In this document: piece by piece, positions 11,622 to 18,492 of the stretch | Layout of the letters: the number at the start of each line of letters is the position of its first letter | Position numbering within the stretch: position 1 is the stretch's first letter | DNA from: Nostocales cyanobacterium Centralia_MAG_434 | Lineage (GTDB): Bacteria > Cyanobacteriota > Cyanobacteriia > Cyanobacteriales > Nostocaceae | Length of the DNA: 38,808 bases | Assembly: GCA_021324415.1 (NCBI GenBank) | Contig: JAJPJF010000512.1 | Coordinates: 1-38,808 of the forward strand | Direction: 5' to 3' | The notes under the pieces: model-generated | Told to the model about the DNA's origin: nothing | Database searches by the model: none | What the model saw: the letters and a program-made list of their open reading frames with translations, nothing else | Program-made: the position numbers and the translations under genes

Positions 11622-13541
11622 TCATTTAAGCAGTTTGTAATTGCTGGCTAGCAGTACAGCCTTATATCCCTGGTGCGGGTGATTGAGTTGCTCTGGATAT
11701 TTGAGTTCTAACAAACCTTCGTCCAACATTGGGTTTATGTAATGAGTTCTCAGAGTGTCTGGGCTGCGTTGGACTAGTTCGGCTAATGTTTTAAGAAGTA
11801 AATATTCTTCTAAACAAAGTTTGAGTATAGTAGCCCGCATTAATTCTGGACTAACTCGTTTTTTATTTCTGACTGGAGCGGCTATTTCCAATAATGGCAC
11901 AGTTTTATTATGCTCGGAGCTTGGCTCGTTATGCTCGGAGCTTGGCTCGTTATGCTCGGAGCTTGGCTCGTTATGCTCGGAGCTTGGCTCGTTATGCTCG
12001 GAGCTTGGCTCGTTATGCTCAGAAGGGGTTGATAGTAATGGCAGTAAATGATCTGATTTTTCTTTGTTCGACAAAGTATAATATGTTCCACGAGCACGAC
12101 CAAAACTTTTAAGCCAACCTTGGGTTACCAGATGCTTGAGACATTCACCTATATCTTTTGGATGCTCGTTACGGTAACGTTGAACATCTGTATTGCAAAT
12201 TCTATCTAATTTGTGTGCCAGAACCAGAATAATTCGCTCTATCTCTGTGAGTTGACAATAATTATCACCAACAATTTCTTTTAGTTCTCGCTCCACTTCT
12301 TGAGGAATTAGGCTTACCATCGGTAAAATCACAGATGTTAATTCTATATCTAATTTTTCTGATACTAATGGAATAAACCATTGTTGTTCCCTCCAGGCAC
12401 GAAGAATTCCGCTAAAACCAGAGCCAGCCTTCTCTCCCAACCCAAGCATTTGAAACATTTTTTGTAGATTCGGGTTTCGTGGATCGCTAACACCTCCTTC
12501 ATAGAGTTGATCGATAGAAATTCTCAGACGACCAGGATTAGAAAATAAAAAACTATCAGGAAACTTGACCACTGATAGGGGACGAGATGAAAGATGATCT
12601 GCATGAATTAACGTATTTACTAAAGCTTCGCGCAATGCTTCGTGTACATGAGTTTCTCCTTTTCGCACTGCTTCTTTGTTTAGTTGAAAAGGTATCTCTA
12701 TATCGTTTACTAAACGGTTATATACGCGATAATAAAAATTCAATAAATTTGGTTCCCATTCTCCATCTAAAGTTAACCGGAAAGTCCAACGTGTATCTGG
12801 GTTATGAGATAATCGCTCTTGGTAATCAAGGTGGTAATGAGGAAAGGCATCTAAAATACTACGTTCGCGACCAAACATCAACAGTCCTGCTGTTGTTAGT
12901 CCTTCTTGATTTATTTCGCGATCGCGTCGCCAGCCACCTAGTTGAATTAGTAGTTCTTTATCATCTAATGCTAACCAAGCATGATCAGGTTTCCTAGAAC
13001 GAAAACGCTGACGAAATGACTTGAGCGTATCTGAATCAAGATCATTCAAATCAAATTTATCAAGCATCTGATAGTCTTGGGGCTCAGAACTAGCATCTCT
13101 AAGCATCTGTTGCACTTCTTCCTTTGTGCAACGATAATCTCCTTCATAATTGCGTTTATATGTACCAGTTAGTGGATTACCATTTATATATACAGGTCGC
13201 TGCGACCTTGCTGCTCTCAGCACTTTTATCAGTATTATTTTTTGTCCCTCGATTTCTCTAGCTTCAACATGAGAGTTAGAGCAAATTGGCGTGCTGAGTT
13301 TTTGCTCATTGTTGTGACTATCCCAAAAGGTTTTCAGTATTACATTTAGATTGCGTATACCAGAAACTTCAAATTCATGTTTATTTTGGCTGACACCAAG
13401 TACAATGTAACCTCCGTCAGTATTGGCAAACGCGGATAAGGTTTCCCACACATCTCTTGGGAATCCACCGTTGGCGGCTTTAAACTCAATGTCTTCATCT
13501 TCTCCGAGGTTTATTTTTTGAAGAAGCGTTTCCGCATCCAT
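11622..13541 (-). CDS. AlbA_2/Schlafen-like domain protein with HATPase_c_4 and C-terminal winged helix
   Basis: 639 residues. Residues about 13-140 are an AlbA_2 (Schlafen-like) domain: EDIEFKAANGGFPRDVWETL and FANTDGGYIVLGV. Residues about 295-390 look like the RecG-related HATPase_c_4 segment: HEALREALVNTLIHADH and NPGRLRI, then GLGEKAGSGFSGILRAW. Residues about 435-480 form a winged helix. A low-complexity SSEHNEP repeat covers about 506-544, and a final winged helix (LRTHYINPMLDEGLLEL) ends the protein. Such proteins are usually annotated as ATP-binding, putative regulators or RecG-like helicases, and often sit in defence or toxin-antitoxin regions. The exact role is unknown. It forms a single-gene unit within the island. 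Confidence 0.8.
   Translation of the reverse strand: MDAETLLQKINLGEDEDIEFKAANGGFPRDVWETLSAFANTDGGYIVLGVSQNKHEFEVSGIRNLNVILKTFWDSHNNEQKLSTPICSNSHVEAREIEGQKIILIKVLRAARSQRPVYINGNPLTGTYKRNYEGDYRCTKEEVQQMLRDASSEPQDYQMLDKFDLNDLDSDTLKSFRQRFRSRKPDHAWLALDDKELLIQLGGWRRDREINQEGLTTAGLLMFGRERSILDAFPHYHLDYQERLSHNPDTRWTFRLTLDGEWEPNLLNFYYRVYNRLVNDIEIPFQLNKEAVRKGETHVHEALREALVNTLIHADHLSSRPLSVVKFPDSFLFSNPGRLRISIDQLYEGGVSDPRNPNLQKMFQMLGLGEKAGSGFSGILRAWREQQWFIPLVSEKLDIELTSVILPMVSLIPQEVERELKEIVGDNYCQLTEIERIILVLAHKLDRICNTDVQRYRNEHPKDIGECLKHLVTQGWLKSFGRARGTYYTLSNKEKSDHLLPLLSTPSEHNEPSSEHNEPSSEHNEPSSEHNEPSSEHNEPSSEHNKTVPLLEIAAPVRNKKRVSPELMRATILKLCLEEYLLLKTLAELVQRSPDTLRTHYINPMLDEGLLELKYPEQLNHPHQGYKAVLLASNYKLLK
11908..12026. 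repeat. 21-bp in-frame tandem repeat inside the AlbA_2 gene
   Basis: Five perfect copies of a 21-bp unit (11908-11928, 11929-11949, 11950-11970, 11971-11991 and 11992-12012) plus a partial sixth. On the coding strand the unit encodes SSEHNEP. The copies are identical at DNA level, so they are recent, and the count should vary by slippage without breaking the frame. It links the helicase-like part to the C-terminal winged helix. Confidence 0.95.
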
Positions 13542-13985: not shown

Positions 13986-14405
13986 TTAATTGAGGCGAGT
14001 GCTGACTTCAAACGCTAGTTCAGCCCGATAGAAACAAACATCGAACGCTTGAAAGAAATTTGTTTGTCCTAGGATTAATGGTGCATTGCGATCACTCGTC
14101 CAGGCAAAGGCTAAATCGACTGGCTCAAAGTTGGCGATTTGGGCTTTTAGGATGATGGCTTTTGCTTCAGAACTAGCTAAGTTACCACCTAGAGGAATAA
14201 TCAGGTTTTGAGCTTCCCAAGTCAGTCCTAATTCTAGACCTACTTCATAAGGCAAAACATTGACGCTAGCTCCGGTATCAAGTAGACCAACAAGCTCAAG
14301 GGAAGGACTTTGATAAGTTAGCTTGATGGGAATGTAAGCAAAGGCACTAAGCGCCCCCATACGTGAGTCTCTTTCAGTGAAGGGGAATCTAATTTTCTGA
14401 ACCAT
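13986..14405 (-). CDS. Retropepsin-like aspartic protease-domain protein
   Basis: 139 residues with a single pepsin/retropepsin lobe. VGLLDTGASVNVLPYEVG contains the DTGA active-site motif at 43-46. A matching C-terminal segment APLILGQTNFFQAFDVCF supplies the conserved ILG strand. Retropepsins of this size work as homodimers, one Asp per subunit. No signal peptide is seen, so it should be cytoplasmic. It is encoded directly after a 74-aa partner with a 17-base overlap, a toxin-antitoxin-like layout that I have seen for this family in cyanobacterial genomes. The substrate is unknown. Confidence 0.75.
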   Translation of the reverse strand: MVQKIRFPFTERDSRMGALSAFAYIPIKLTYQSPSLELVGLLDTGASVNVLPYEVGLELGLTWEAQNLIIPLGGNLASSEAKAIILKAQIANFEPVDLAFAWTSDRNAPLILGQTNFFQAFDVCFYRAELAFEVSTRLN

Positions 14406-14613
14406 TTTTGCGAGACTGATGCTCTGCTAAAGCTTGGGTCAGAATGGATGCAGCTTCAGCCGATGTCCGTAGTGCAGTAATTTGATCTGGTGGTTGGTTT
14501 TCTCTTGAGGCGGCAGTCTGTCTGGTCTGGAGTCTAGATTGAAAAAGTTTCTGGTCTTCGGGAGAGAGGTTTAGTACCACTTCCACAAGGGAGTTAACAA
14601 GCTCTACATTCAT
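14389..14613 (-). CDS. Small partner protein of the retropepsin-like protein
   Basis: 74 residues: a helical N-terminus (NVELVNSLVEVVLNLSPEDQ) followed by a Gln/Ala-rich basic tail. It starts at the ATG at 14613 and overlaps the retropepsin gene by 17 bases, so the two are translationally coupled. It has no recognisable DNA-binding motif. It could be an antitoxin-like regulator, an inhibitor or a substrate of its neighbour. The function is not known. Confidence 0.55.
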   Translation of the reverse strand: MNVELVNSLVEVVLNLSPEDQKLFQSRLQTRQTAASRENQPPDQITALRTSAEAASILTQALAEHQSRKNGSEN

Positions 14614-14919: not shown

Positions 14920-15144
14920 CTAAAAGCGAGTGTCATTCCACACTCGTTTTATTTCCATTTCCAGTGGGGATTCATTCGGATTTTTTGTGGGCTGAGGACG
15001 GCTCCAATTATTGACTTCGCTAAATCCTAAGCTGTACAGTGTGTGAATTATCTTGGAGATTGCTCTGTGAGAACCAGTCAGAGTCAGTTTGACAGACTCA
15101 ATACCTGAAGTGTTTGCAGTAGTAGTCACAATGCTGTTGGACAT
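14920..15144 (-). CDS. Small hypothetical protein (74 aa), divergent from the HNH nuclease gene
   Basis: 74 residues, starting at ATG 15144 with AGGT just upstream. ESVKLTLTGSHRAISKIIHT followed by LYSLGFSEVNNWSRP reads as a small alpha/beta unit without signal or membrane segment. No family recognised. It is divergent from the HTH-HNH gene and shares with it the 115-base control region that holds the palindromes at 15175-15219. Co-regulation with the nuclease is therefore likely, and an accessory or regulatory role is possible but unproven. Confidence 0.55.
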   Translation of the reverse strand: MSNSIVTTTANTSGIESVKLTLTGSHRAISKIIHTLYSLGFSEVNNWSRPQPTKNPNESPLEMEIKRVWNDTRF

Positions 15145-15174: not shown

Positions 15175-15219
15175 AAGTTATCACATATGATAACTTTTTC
15201 TAAAATTAAGTTATCATAT
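15175..15219. promoter_or_regulatory. Three AAGTTATCA half-sites in the divergent promoter
   Basis: AAGTTATCA (15175-15183), TGATAACTT (15188-15196) and AAGTTATCA (15208-15216). The first two form a 9-bp inverted repeat with a 4-base spacer. The second and third form a 12-bp perfect inverted repeat (15185-15196 with 15208-15219) around 11 bases. It lies between the divergent genes starting at 15144 and 15260. It looks like an operator for a dimeric or tetrameric repressor; the HTH domain of the downstream gene is the obvious candidate. Confidence 0.7.
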
Positions 15220-15259
15220 ACAGTAACAGATTTGATACGCGCTTTTTTAGCACATATAT

Positions 15260-16642
15260 ATGGGACAGGCAGGCAAAGCACTTAGACAAGTACTAGAAGC
15301 CTACGGCATTAGTCAGAGCAGTTTAGCAGCAGCATTAGGGGTTGAACGCCCTATTGTATTCCGCTGGTTTCATGAACACACAGATCCCACAGCTGAGACT
15401 GTTGCGGGTATTGTTAAAGTACTTGAACAGATTAATTCAACGGCAGCAAAGGAATTTATCAAACTCTATCTGTGTGATCTAACTCAAGATAGAGAAATTA
15501 GTTTAATAACAGATACACCTTACGAATTGCCCCAGTCTAAAACAGTAAATATTTCTGTACTGTCCGGGTTATTTACAAATACAACAAACTCTTACAAATA
15601 TCTTTTTTTTCTTTCACTTCTTGATATCTTAAAAAGACGAGAATTTGAGATTTTATCTCCTATTAGTTTTAGAGAAATAATCATTGAGATGCTAGCTAAC
15701 GCTTGGTATCCTCATACGTATTTTAAATTATCTTTTGGAACACAAGACAAAATTGCAGAAAAGCTAGACTCTTTGAAACTAGAAATTAGTGAACCTATAT
15801 TAAAATTCACGGACACAGATAAAAAATTATTACGTAAGACGATTGGAAATCAGGATATAGATGATATAATTACCTTTATTAGAAGATATGTACCTTTTCG
15901 ACTGGTTAGACCCTTTTTTGAACAAGAGCTAAGAGGATTAAAGGATAGTGAAGTAGATCAAAAAATTCCCGGTTTATCAAGAGAGCAATTTGAAGTTAAA
16001 AAACCGCTTTACTGTTTTGATGCTAGTCTTTATAAAGATTGTAAATCTATAATACTTCATTCTGAATGGGTTTCATATATAGAAGCTAACTATTCAATTA
16101 TTCGCGCATGGGCATCTTGGGAATGGCTTAAATATATGCAAAAACGTAATCCCAATATTCCTGCTGTTGCTAACAAGCTATTTCCACCTCATGAGCGAGG
16201 GCGACTAAATCAACAAAAATCTTACTGGAAACTGATTCTCACAAAGACTGACATAAAGTGTATTTATTCTAATCAACCTGTGTACGCTGATAGTTTTTCA
16301 CTCGACCACTATTTGCCTTGGTCATTTGTAGCTCACGATCAACCTTGGAATTTAATTCCTACTTTTCCTGAAGTTAATTCATCAAAATCTAATCATATTC
16401 CTAATAATAATTATTTTGATAAATTTGTAAGCCTACAGCATTTAGGGCTTTTTATATTACAAAGAAATCTGAGTAAACAACAATGGAGTAATTATGTAGA
16501 ATCATATATAAATGATTTAAGAATTATTAAGGAGGATAATCTTCTTGACTTACAAATTCTTAAATCAGCTTACGAATTAACCCTCACTCCTTTAATATCT
16601 ATAGCTTTAGGACAAGGGTTTACTAAATGGTCTTATAGATAG
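15260..16642 (+). CDS. XRE-type HTH fused to an HNH endonuclease
   Basis: 460 residues in one frame. Residues about 5-70 are an XRE-like helix-turn-helix: ALRQVLEAYGISQSSLAAAL, then GVERPIVFRWFHEHTDPTAE and IVKVLEQI. Residues about 100-330 are a helical region opening with LSGLFTNTTNSYKYLFFLSL. Residues about 331-380 are the HNH nuclease core: CIYSNQP (a zinc-knuckle position, with Ser instead of a second Cys), DHYLPWSFVAHD (catalytic His350), PWNLIP (Asn364) and NSSKSNHIP. HNH proteins with this middle region are usually annotated as stand-alone endonucleases linked to defence; an N-terminal HTH is unusual. The ATG at 15260 has no Shine-Dalgarno sequence. I infer a self-regulating, DNA-cutting protein. 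It is AT-rich compared with its neighbours, suggesting transfer. Confidence 0.78.
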   Translation: MGQAGKALRQVLEAYGISQSSLAAALGVERPIVFRWFHEHTDPTAETVAGIVKVLEQINSTAAKEFIKLYLCDLTQDREISLITDTPYELPQSKTVNISVLSGLFTNTTNSYKYLFFLSLLDILKRREFEILSPISFREIIIEMLANAWYPHTYFKLSFGTQDKIAEKLDSLKLEISEPILKFTDTDKKLLRKTIGNQDIDDIITFIRRYVPFRLVRPFFEQELRGLKDSEVDQKIPGLSREQFEVKKPLYCFDASLYKDCKSIILHSEWVSYIEANYSIIRAWASWEWLKYMQKRNPNIPAVANKLFPPHERGRLNQQKSYWKLILTKTDIKCIYSNQPVYADSFSLDHYLPWSFVAHDQPWNLIPTFPEVNSSKSNHIPNNNYFDKFVSLQHLGLFILQRNLSKQQWSNYVESYINDLRIIKEDNLLDLQILKSAYELTLTPLISIALGQGFTKWSYR

Positions 16643-17124: not shown

Positions 17125-18492
17125 TCAGACTCCTATCTCGTAAGCCTTTTGCACTTTTATAGCTGTCGAACTCACGCTAGGGTTAACAGTTGTTGCTTCT
17201 ACAAAAGCTTCTCGACCTGTAATCAGTCGAGAGCGACGATTACGAGTGATATAGTTCCATGCCCACTGAAATACTACTAATAATTTAGTGTCAAACTCGA
17301 TTAAAAAGTAAATGTGAACTACTAGCCAAAATATCCAAGCAAGGAAACCTTGGAGTTTGATGAAGCTTAAATCTACAACAGCTAAATTTTGCCCAATCAT
17401 CGCCAAACTACCTACGTCATTGTAGCGGAATTGTGGAAGTGTTTGACCTTGAAGGCGTTTTTGAATGAGTTTAGCTACATACTCTCCTTCTTGTTTGGCT
17501 ACGGGTGCAACACCAGGTAAGGGTTTCCCATCTTGATGGGAGAAGTTGCCTAAATCTCCGATTACAAAAATGTTTTTATAACCCTTGACCGTCAAGTCTG
17601 GTTCTACCATCACACGTCCAGAGCGATCGCACTCTACACCTGTACGGTTTGCTAAAATTTGCCCCATAGAGGAACCTTTCACACCTGCTGCCCATAATAT
17701 AGTTTTTGAGGCAATTTCTTGAACTTCATCACCTTGCTTAAAAGTAACGATATCATTTTCAATATTCGTCACTCTAGTATTAGTTTGGGTAACCACACCC
17801 AACTTTTGCAAAGATACTTCTGCTACTTTTGATAACTTTGGTGCCATATGAGGGAGGATGCGATCGCCCCCTTGTAATAATAAAATCTTAGTTTCTGAGG
17901 TATCGATGTTGCGGAAATCGTCTTTGAGAGTTTTGTAAGCCAGTTCTGAGATTGCACCTGCTAATTCTACACCGGTGGGACCAGCTCCTACAATTACAAA
18001 AGTCAACCAAGCACGACGTAATTCTGGATCAGTTTCTTTTTCTGCTGCTTCAAATGCCGAAAATATCCGGCGACGTATTTCTATGGCGTCTTCAACAGTT
18101 TTCAAGCCTGGAGCCATTGGCCTCCAGTTATCATGACCATAGTACGAATGGTTAGCACCTGTGGCAACAACTAATGTATCGTAGGGTACTGTTCTATCAC
18201 CCAAGATAACTTGTTGGGATTCTGGATCAATATCGTTTACTTCTCCCAACAGCACTTTCGTATTCTTGCTTTTTCTGAATACAGCTCGTAATGGTGAGGA
18301 AATATCAGAGGGTGATAACGTACCTGTCGCAACTTGATATAAAAGCGGCTGAAATAAATGAAAGTTACGTTTATCGATAAGAGTAACATTGACATTCGCG
18401 TTGGCAAGAGTCTTTGCTGTATACAGTCCACCAAAGCCACCACCAATGATGACAACGTGATGTAGTGCATTATTCTCATGTACAACTACCAT
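17125..18492 (-). CDS. ndh: Type II NADH dehydrogenase (NDH-2)
   Basis: 455 residues, a peripheral-membrane flavoprotein that passes electrons from NAD(P)H to quinone without proton pumping. An FAD-binding Rossmann motif VVIIGGGFGGLY lies at 13-24. HLFQPLLYQVATGTL is characteristic of NDH-2. An NAD(P)-binding motif VIVGAGPTGVELAG lies at 167-180 and the FAD-contacting VIGDLGNF near 316. The C-terminal part has hydrophobic amphipathic segments (GFLAWIFWLVVHIYFLIEF) that fit membrane attachment. The length is typical. In cyanobacteria NDH-2 proteins are thought to sense or adjust the redox state of the plastoquinone pool. It is a single-gene unit. Confidence 0.93.
   Translation of the reverse strand: MVVVHENNALHHVVIIGGGFGGLYTAKTLANANVNVTLIDKRNFHLFQPLLYQVATGTLSPSDISSPLRAVFRKSKNTKVLLGEVNDIDPESQQVILGDRTVPYDTLVVATGANHSYYGHDNWRPMAPGLKTVEDAIEIRRRIFSAFEAAEKETDPELRRAWLTFVIVGAGPTGVELAGAISELAYKTLKDDFRNIDTSETKILLLQGGDRILPHMAPKLSKVAEVSLQKLGVVTQTNTRVTNIENDIVTFKQGDEVQEIASKTILWAAGVKGSSMGQILANRTGVECDRSGRVMVEPDLTVKGYKNIFVIGDLGNFSHQDGKPLPGVAPVAKQEGEYVAKLIQKRLQGQTLPQFRYNDVGSLAMIGQNLAVVDLSFIKLQGFLAWIFWLVVHIYFLIEFDTKLLVVFQWAWNYITRNRRSRLITGREAFVEATTVNPSVSSTAIKVQKAYEIGV

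Follow-up and report, generated by a model that had tools for sequence, protein, structure and literature searches.

The fused gene and its surroundings

The window, the whole stretch of 38,808 nucleotides analysed from the Nostocales cyanobacterium Centralia_MAG_434, carries on its forward strand an uninterrupted ORF (15260–16642) encoding a protein of 460 amino acids. According to Pfam, alignments and an AlphaFold model, it joins an XRE helix-turn-helix (HTH) domain, a flexible linker, a helical domain resembling sulfur-binding domains (SBDs) and an HNH_4 nuclease. The full-length model (mean pLDDT 82.7, pTM 0.57) distinguishes the HTH (residues 1–72), a disordered linker and a folded core. 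The N-terminal HTH domain (15260–15475) has a significant profile hit, with HTH_3 matched at residues 8–55 (E 1.6e-6, 28.5 bits against a cut-off of 23); one relative (L040) scores 19.6, below this cut-off. The fold is that of XRE proteins, many of which occur among the structural matches, such as ClgR (Z 9.8) and C.Esp1396I (Z 9.0, rmsd 2.4, 73 aligned residues), and the recognition helix lies near residues 28–39 (VERPIVFRWFHE). The linker (residues 73–89, 15476–15526) has pLDDT <50 at residues 73–88 and is poorly conserved, with 18–47% identity to the five relatives compared. The folded core starts at LP (residues 90–91), and most aligned unfused relatives start within a few residues of this point.

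The core comprises the helical middle domain (residues 90–312, 15527–16195), with a candidate pocket at Y112, K113, Y150 and P151 and its best structural match in the SBD of ScoMcrA, and the HNH_4 core (D349–H350, N364, N373) with C-terminal helices (16196–16639), assigned by Pfam, alignment and profile search. HNH_4 is matched at residues 334–381 (E 2.5e-9, 37.4 bits against a cut-off of 22). All 34 aligned family members share residues D349, H350, N364, N373 and K376, which argues against a nuclease site that is inactive across the family. A Pfam scan of the fused protein at E up to 1 gave no DUF262 match. The preliminary description of this DNA, which placed an XRE HTH, a helical middle and an HNH core in one frame, is borne out: both Pfam domains score above their cut-offs and the middle is helical in the models. 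It was also right that the gene is AT-rich (34% GC in both 1-kb bins of 15–17 kb), but this says little, because other bins of the window are equally low (33.7–34.9% at 1–2, 19–20 and 31–32 kb, in a range reaching 49.4%).

Two neighbours on the reverse strand deserve mention. The gene at 11622–13541 encodes a Schlafen/AlbA_2 protein whose C-terminal part is RecG-like; the protein contains five SEHNEPS repeats and matches a PADLOC pAgo model (4.7e-16). A possible aspartyl-protease-like gene (13986–14613), with a Pfam E of 1.3e-4 just below the cut-off, overlaps a 74-aa upstream gene. The toxin–antitoxin neighbours are not needed to explain the fused gene.

The operator and probable self-control

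The sequence AAGTTATCA occurs at 15175–15183 (+), 15188–15196 (−) and 15208–15216 (+), with one more copy at 17830; four copies in the window compare with 0.55 expected, and none of 100 shuffles reaches four. The promoter had been described as three half-sites in alternating orientation. These three copies are present, but the architecture is that of two palindromes, the fourth half-site being degenerate. Palindrome 1 (GTTATCACATATGATAAC, 15177–15194), detected by a palindrome scan and recurring in relatives, is nearly perfect (8/9 pairs). Downstream, palindrome 2 (GTTATCATATACAGTAAC, 15210–15227) is degenerate (6/9 pairs). They lie 33 bp apart, start to start, and palindrome 1 is the conserved one. 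A weak promoter-like pair on the forward strand (TTATCA, 17 nt, TAAAAT; 15178–15206) falls on palindrome 1 and between the palindromes, in a region where the promoter scan performs at chance level (10 such sites against 7.7 expected).

The operator recurs with the fused gene. The pattern GTTATCAN4TGATAAC, with at most two mismatches and within 200 bp upstream, is found at 25 of 30 fused genes (some of them close relatives) and at none of 16 unfused genes, while only five contain it among 19,193 random windows from the same loci; L037, from the same organism as L036, and the genome-search copies L003–L031 were left out of this count. The recognition helix is altered in four of the five fused genes without the pattern (L053, L055, L056 and L058); the fifth (L044) keeps the usual helix but has an upstream region unlike the others. 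Across the 8.4-Mb host genome, the exact operator has a single site, the promoter of the fused gene itself; one mismatch adds two sites, and a reversed-pattern control gives more.

A broader survey relates helices to half-sites. Upstream of 33 of 54 HTH genes (23/30 fused and 10/24 stand-alone) lies a palindrome in which at least 6 of the 7 outer pairs match, whereas such palindromes occur in 3.9% of shuffled regions. Once the 10 genes without a palindrome of score ≥5 were dropped, the remaining 44 reduced to 32 distinct pairs, among which recognition-helix distance correlates with half-site distance (Mantel r 0.44, p 0.0002); without the GTTATC class, the correlation persists over 22 pairs (r 0.35, p 0.0004), shared ancestry being uncontrolled in both cases. 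This co-variation is the strongest evidence, at the level of sequence, that the HTH reads the operator. Because the operator recurs with fused but not with the 16 unfused genes, and half-sites co-vary with the helix, it is most likely that the fused HTH regulates the promoter of its own gene; the earlier suggestion of a nuclease able to bind its own promoter gains support accordingly in sequence terms.

The divergent small gene and the stand-alone HTH

Across the promoter lies, as previously described, a divergent gene of 74 amino acids (14920–15144, reverse strand). Its relatives occur at loci of the stand-alone HTH and across from several fused genes; in other fused loci, the gene upstream on the opposite strand encodes 90 aa, 70 aa or a LAGLIDADG endonuclease. 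The last arrangement occurs in eight distinct fused loci (nine matches, since L003 and L035 are one contig), with the assignment resting on PF03161 (2.9e-35); a weak ROS/MUCR-like stretch is seen in examples such as L038 (4942–5895) and L095 (10684–11637). The LAGLIDADG endonuclease may mobilise the cassette.

Stand-alone HTH genes of the same family encode about 80 amino acids and are 37–62%, mostly 47–62%, identical to the fused domain. Twenty such regions from 13 genomes were hand-picked from the better-scoring matches. Relatives of the small gene, of a 74- or 73-aa type, adjoin 17 of these 20 loci (32–55% identity over 33–58 aa in tblastn). DndC or DndD adjoins the HTH in nine of the 20, a sample that is not random, and in eight of these nine the HTH lies between the two. 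In these eight (L079 and L081–L087), palindromes are located between divergent genes; the divergent 74-aa gene is present in seven, and in L079 DndD itself is divergent. Many stand-alone genes have palindromes at about −89 and −53, nearly the same places as in fused genes, with other half-sites: GTTACC or GTTACA with helix TGRPNVHRWVNE, GTTCG with VNRSSVFGWVNE and GTAC with IARSSINGWVNQ. No clear palindrome was found upstream of several others, for example the tandem copies in L077. The genome concerned (G147; L077, L080 and L088) has 13 matches to the HTH, some in tandem.

Since stand-alone HTH genes share the palindrome positions and the divergent small gene, HTH, paired operators and small gene look like an older cassette that a nuclease joined later. 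In another locus (L092, 1942–2823), an HTH of this family, again with a divergent 74-aa gene, is joined to a PD-(D/E)XK domain (PDLC01472, PADLOC 3.1e-29), by its sequence a second nuclease fusion of the HTH regulator.

A middle domain resembling sulfur-binding domains

With the full-length model, Foldseek found nothing at E ≤0.001. As its structural matches were filled by the HTH, the middle domain was folded alone (pLDDT 90.6, pTM 0.89). This model also lacks a Foldseek match at E 0.001 or better, with no SBD among the best 50 listed, and an SBD ranked first only after the Foldseek candidates had been re-aligned. The best of 653 re-aligned candidates is then the ScoMcrA SBD with PT (phosphorothioate) DNA (5zmo_A, rmsd 3.1, 124 aligned residues in a chain of 158) with Z 6.9, followed by full ScoMcrA (5zmm_C) with Z 6.4, both below the value of 8 under which Z can reflect a common helical arrangement; the next candidates are unrelated (Z 3.5 or less). 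This structural match is independent of gene context.

Sequence profiles do not confirm it. Alignment of SBD and middle-domain profiles is not significant (hhalign probability 1.35 and 1.71), the best hit in a PDB profile search is unrelated (E 0.29), and a Pfam scan of 29 members returned four weak, unrelated families (best E 0.016). The published SBD pockets comprise H116-R117-Y164-P165-A168, whose P165 is among the two most conserved pocket residues in known SBDs (PMC6224610, PMC7461809), and Y31-Q32-Y78-P79-A82 (PMC7470945). The candidate counterparts here, whose equivalence rests on a weak alignment, are Y112, K113 and Y150, present in 34 of 34 members, and P151, which is not invariant (27 of 34 members and, in a more diverse set, 11 of 13). 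By motif-diagonal score, the Y-K motif ranks 12th of 31,616, and the Y-P motif 71st of 34,185 as the best of four shifts, the shift itself being a choice. A sulfur-binding fold is therefore likely from the models, yet kept as unsettled because the profiles do not confirm it.

Distribution and evolution of the family

The fused form, unfamiliar to the author of the preliminary description, proves not to be rare: matches begin at residue 1 in 28 of 43 loci (two from the same organism) and in 16 of 31 carrier genomes. In a sample of 386 genomes from the phylum, the nuclease is matched at E 1e-30 in 27, nine of them from residue 1 onwards. The fused form is also carried by plasmid pSYSM of Synechocystis PCC 6803 (SGL_RS00075). 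Fused and unfused states changed eight times on a tree of 42 rows, at least six changes being forced by supported branches; the tree leaves out L037 (same organism as L036) and the genome-search copies L003–L031 except L014. None of 16 pattern matches in viral contigs is a relative, and 50,697 phage records contain a single partial match (25.8% identity, E 1e-23).

On a Leptolyngbya plasmid (L097, 7691–9131), an XRE gene with TTTCTAGAAA-type repeats upstream stands just before an unfused nuclease gene and an SspA-like gene. This arrangement was considered as a split form of the fusion and ruled out, the HTH being a different XRE protein. The presence of an unrelated XRE gene at this place suggests repeated acquisition of HTH control.

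Phosphorothioation genes around the relatives

Relatives of the nuclease, fused or unfused alike, lie among genes of Ssp phosphorothioation, namely SspB (DUF4007), SspC, SspD and SspA, with a helicase and a GHKL ATPase. With flanks of up to 6 kb, some contigs being shorter and a few matches covering <40 aa, SspB, SspC or SspD lies near 27 of 43 named loci, and any of SspA–D or a fragment near 36; nine of the 36 have an SspA-like gene or fragment alone, which could be an ordinary cysteine desulfurase. SspA fragments of 35–196 aa adjoin the nuclease genes in L035, L036, L053, L055 and L062. In L066, the PADLOC models of SspB (2.4e-125), SspC (0) and SspD (5.4e-110) are matched, and unfused copies follow SspD in L066, L073 and L074, with the order SspD–nuclease–helicase in L066 and L073. 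PADLOC on 120 neighbours from 17 loci found SspB models in up to 17, SspA in at least 11 and SspC in at least nine, in a scan limited to the 25 commonest families and to ORFs of up to 1000 aa, which undercounts SspC and says nothing on SspE. Gene lists inspected by eye show PT genes and no recurrent methyltransferase.

At the genome level, 31 of 149 genomes, host included, have the nuclease core and 33 have SspC, 15 having both (Fisher p 2.2e-4). The two genes are ≤3.3 kb apart in 14 of these 15 and on different contigs in one. The other 16 carriers lack an SspC match; the gene is uninterrupted to the C-terminus in 12 of these 16, against 15 of 15 with SspC (p 0.10). Of nine annotated plasmid regions, four contain Ssp genes (Synechocystis pSYSM, Leptolyngbya, Hymenobacter and Geminocystis), the Bacteroidota plasmid of Hymenobacter showing the same Ssp neighbours of the nuclease, and five do not (Allochromatium, Calothrix, Sinorhizobium, Segatella and Nostoc CENA543). 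No Ssp genes lie near a Lachnospiraceae relative (L072) either. In the 15 genomes with both genes, two PADLOC models of SspE (PDLC02785 and PDLC02789) found no match at the nuclease locus. Elsewhere, PDLC02785 matched one of 16 genomes, on another contig and over its N-terminal part only, and none of 14 controls. PDLC02789 matched 12 of 16, mostly over the N-terminal DUF262 part, with two ORFs of one genome (G101) matched at both ends; it is considered unspecific since it also matches six of 14 controls.

The situation differs for the window copy. No Ssp remnants were found at 11.6–20.5 kb around the fused gene (best E 0.15), and neither SspC, in a search with a working control, nor SspD, in a search without one, has a match in the host draft genome. 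Cysteine desulfurases are found there, and another contig encodes DndC, DndD and a DndB-like gene; the HTH of the fused family was not found at these Dnd genes. The same contig carries a GmrSD-type gene (L116, 113–1243; GmrSD_C 1e-24). The window copy is an orphan in a genome with Dnd genes and without a match to SspC or SspD. The earlier idea of a compact defence gene is in this way upheld in part: the relatives adjoin Ssp genes, and for that reason the nuclease resembles a component of a PT system made up of several genes, even though the window copy, like other orphans, does stand alone.

A proposed self-regulated effector and its alternatives

Because its relatives often sit inside PT defence islands, the fused protein is probably a defence nuclease controlling its own expression. 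More specifically, it may be a PT-sensing HNH nuclease effector that regulates its own expression, a reading to which we give slightly less than even odds (a probability of about 0.47). The N-terminal XRE domain would bind the two tandem palindromes at its own promoter and limit, most likely repress, transcription of the fused gene, and perhaps that of its divergent 74-aa neighbour. The helical middle would be a divergent SBD reading PT marks in DNA, and the HNH domain would nick or cut DNA. The native setting would be an Ssp-type island (SspB-SspC-SspD, SspA, helicase and GHKL ATPase) in which the nuclease takes the place held elsewhere by SspE, reading self PT marks and attacking DNA without them. 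This SspE-like role is preferred since the family sits with PT genes and the two SspE models find no SspE there. The domains, the conserved residues of the active site, the operator with its co-variation with the HTH and the PT setting of the family are computed results, whereas the direction of regulation, PT sensing, cleavage and phage defence are what we infer in this scheme. That orphans remain intact suggests that cells survive the nuclease without Ssp protection; this would fit a PT-stimulated activity (as in SspE and DndI), PT-directed cutting or tight self-repression.

The PT-directed cutting just mentioned is the core of the most serious alternative, judged clearly less probable, in which the protein is type IV-like: the SBD would direct the HNH domain to cut PT DNA, orphans would defend against DNA marked by the PT system of another strain, and copies in Ssp islands would differ in sequence preference or be kept silent by the HTH. 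Known SBD-HNH proteins do cut PT DNA (PMC7461809, PMC6224610), and orphans are often intact, as in the 12 of 16 carriers mentioned above. A PT-DNA cutter inside a PT island would, however, risk attacking self, and the host of the window copy has Dnd genes of its own. The literature is divided on whether such enzymes keep company with PT genes: in one survey, <3.6% of predicted PT-dependent SBD-HNH enzymes are possibly associated with dnd clusters (PMC7461809), whereas another counts 698 taxa whose Dnd loci encode a wHTH(SBD)+SAD+HNH protein (PMC10853773), so that SBD-type HNH enzymes can live with PT genes. This division keeps the alternative serious.

An improbable explanation is that of a selfish or addictive cassette: an HNH gene under its own control that would accompany PT islands and outlast them for its own spread or maintenance, while playing no part in PT immunity. 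The SspA fragments beside five nuclease genes (L035, L036, L053, L055 and L062), the LAGLIDADG genes upstream on the opposite strand in eight distinct loci and the six or more changes between fused and unfused states would all suit such an element. The unfused copies in SspD–nuclease–helicase order (L066 and L073) are without such features, and the SBD-like fold would have to be a coincidence.

About equally improbable is the boldest reading, a PT-coupled switch in which one chain binds the operator and senses sulfur, so that promoter occupancy and nuclease dose follow the amount of PT-marked DNA; if PT marks were lost or unmarked DNA came in, repression would be lifted and cutting activated. 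If true, it would provide the restriction half for cyanobacterial PT systems, and would make the HTH and 74-aa cassette a common controller of Dnd and Ssp systems.

Two further readings are very unlikely. The preliminary description had proposed that the HTH may guide the cut to a DNA site; a promoter-type palindrome in mobile elements would be an example of a specific one. HTH and nuclease do form one chain and operators are specific, but this suggestion is not supported, given that the single exact site in the genome is the gene's own promoter, the linker is flexible, HTHs of the same family stand alone in Dnd loci, and unfused relatives, including L066 and L073 in their SspD–nuclease–helicase order, are without this HTH. 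A transcription factor with a nuclease remnant would draw on autoregulation, the best supported function here, but HNH residues invariant in 34 of 34 members and unfused copies devoid of this regulator domain speak against it.

Comparison with known systems

Over the HNH part, the fused protein resembles the PADLOC candidate PDC-M01B weakly (best model 7.7e-7, residues 315–440); the HTH and most of the middle domain are unmatched. By profile, the nearest solved HNH is the Cas9 HNH domain (6o56_A, E 6.6e-5), again for the HNH part only. The SBD-HNH type IV enzymes ScoMcrA, SprMcrA and EcoWI have a helical domain of apparently similar fold followed by HNH, with Tyr/basic...Tyr-Pro residues for which the middle domain of the fused family has candidate counterparts (PMC6224610, PMC7461809, PMC7470945), but lack significant profile similarity to it, and the nuclease here is HNH_4; three SBDHga1-like plasmid proteins that were scanned have HNH_2 and no HTH match.

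HNH nucleases encoded beside PT genes have already been described as likely restriction components (PMC10853773, PMC12839542). These occur in Dnd and BREX neighbourhoods and include wHTH(SBD)+SAD+HNH proteins; like the present family they lie beside PT genes, but differ in domain make-up and in their Dnd rather than Ssp setting, and XRE-fused HNH_4 is unmentioned in the available text of both papers. SspE (in SspABCD-SspE) and DndI (in IscS-DndBCDE-DndI) are PT-sensing nuclease partners of PT modification that couple sensing to NTP hydrolysis (PMC9646914, PMC11662687). SspE combines a DUF262/GTPase N-domain with an HNH C-domain, whereas the fused protein has no DUF262 match and carries its own HTH.

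In the literature searched, mostly available without subscription, no description of an XRE-HNH_4 fusion or its operator was found. One study reports that dnd genes are enriched in Nostocales but that PT restriction systems are absent from cyanobacteria (PMC8569181). A widespread HNH family beside cyanobacterial Ssp genes, with a middle domain like a sulfur reader, is a concrete candidate effector. Its presence in the model strain Synechocystis PCC 6803 means that the gene can be knocked out and assayed. The HTH and 74-aa cassette, many copies of which have a predicted operator, is in turn a testable candidate for one controller acting in both Dnd and Ssp loci.

C proteins are XRE-type controllers. 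In C protein–REase fusions such as CR.NsoJS138I, the nuclease is fused in frame to the controller, as it is to the HTH here, and the fused gene controls its own promoter, as is likely here (PMC3850674); the same source notes cyanobacterial fusions of this kind that have some 25 additional residues in the linker. A paired operator upstream is a further common feature, here with two palindromes 33 bp apart of which the first is conserved. The differences concern the nuclease, HNH_4 here against a PvuII-type REase in CR.NsoJS138I, and the setting, the relatives here adjoining PT (Ssp) genes. The fused gene is arranged like a C protein–REase fusion, a likeness that need not imply descent of its HTH from C proteins.
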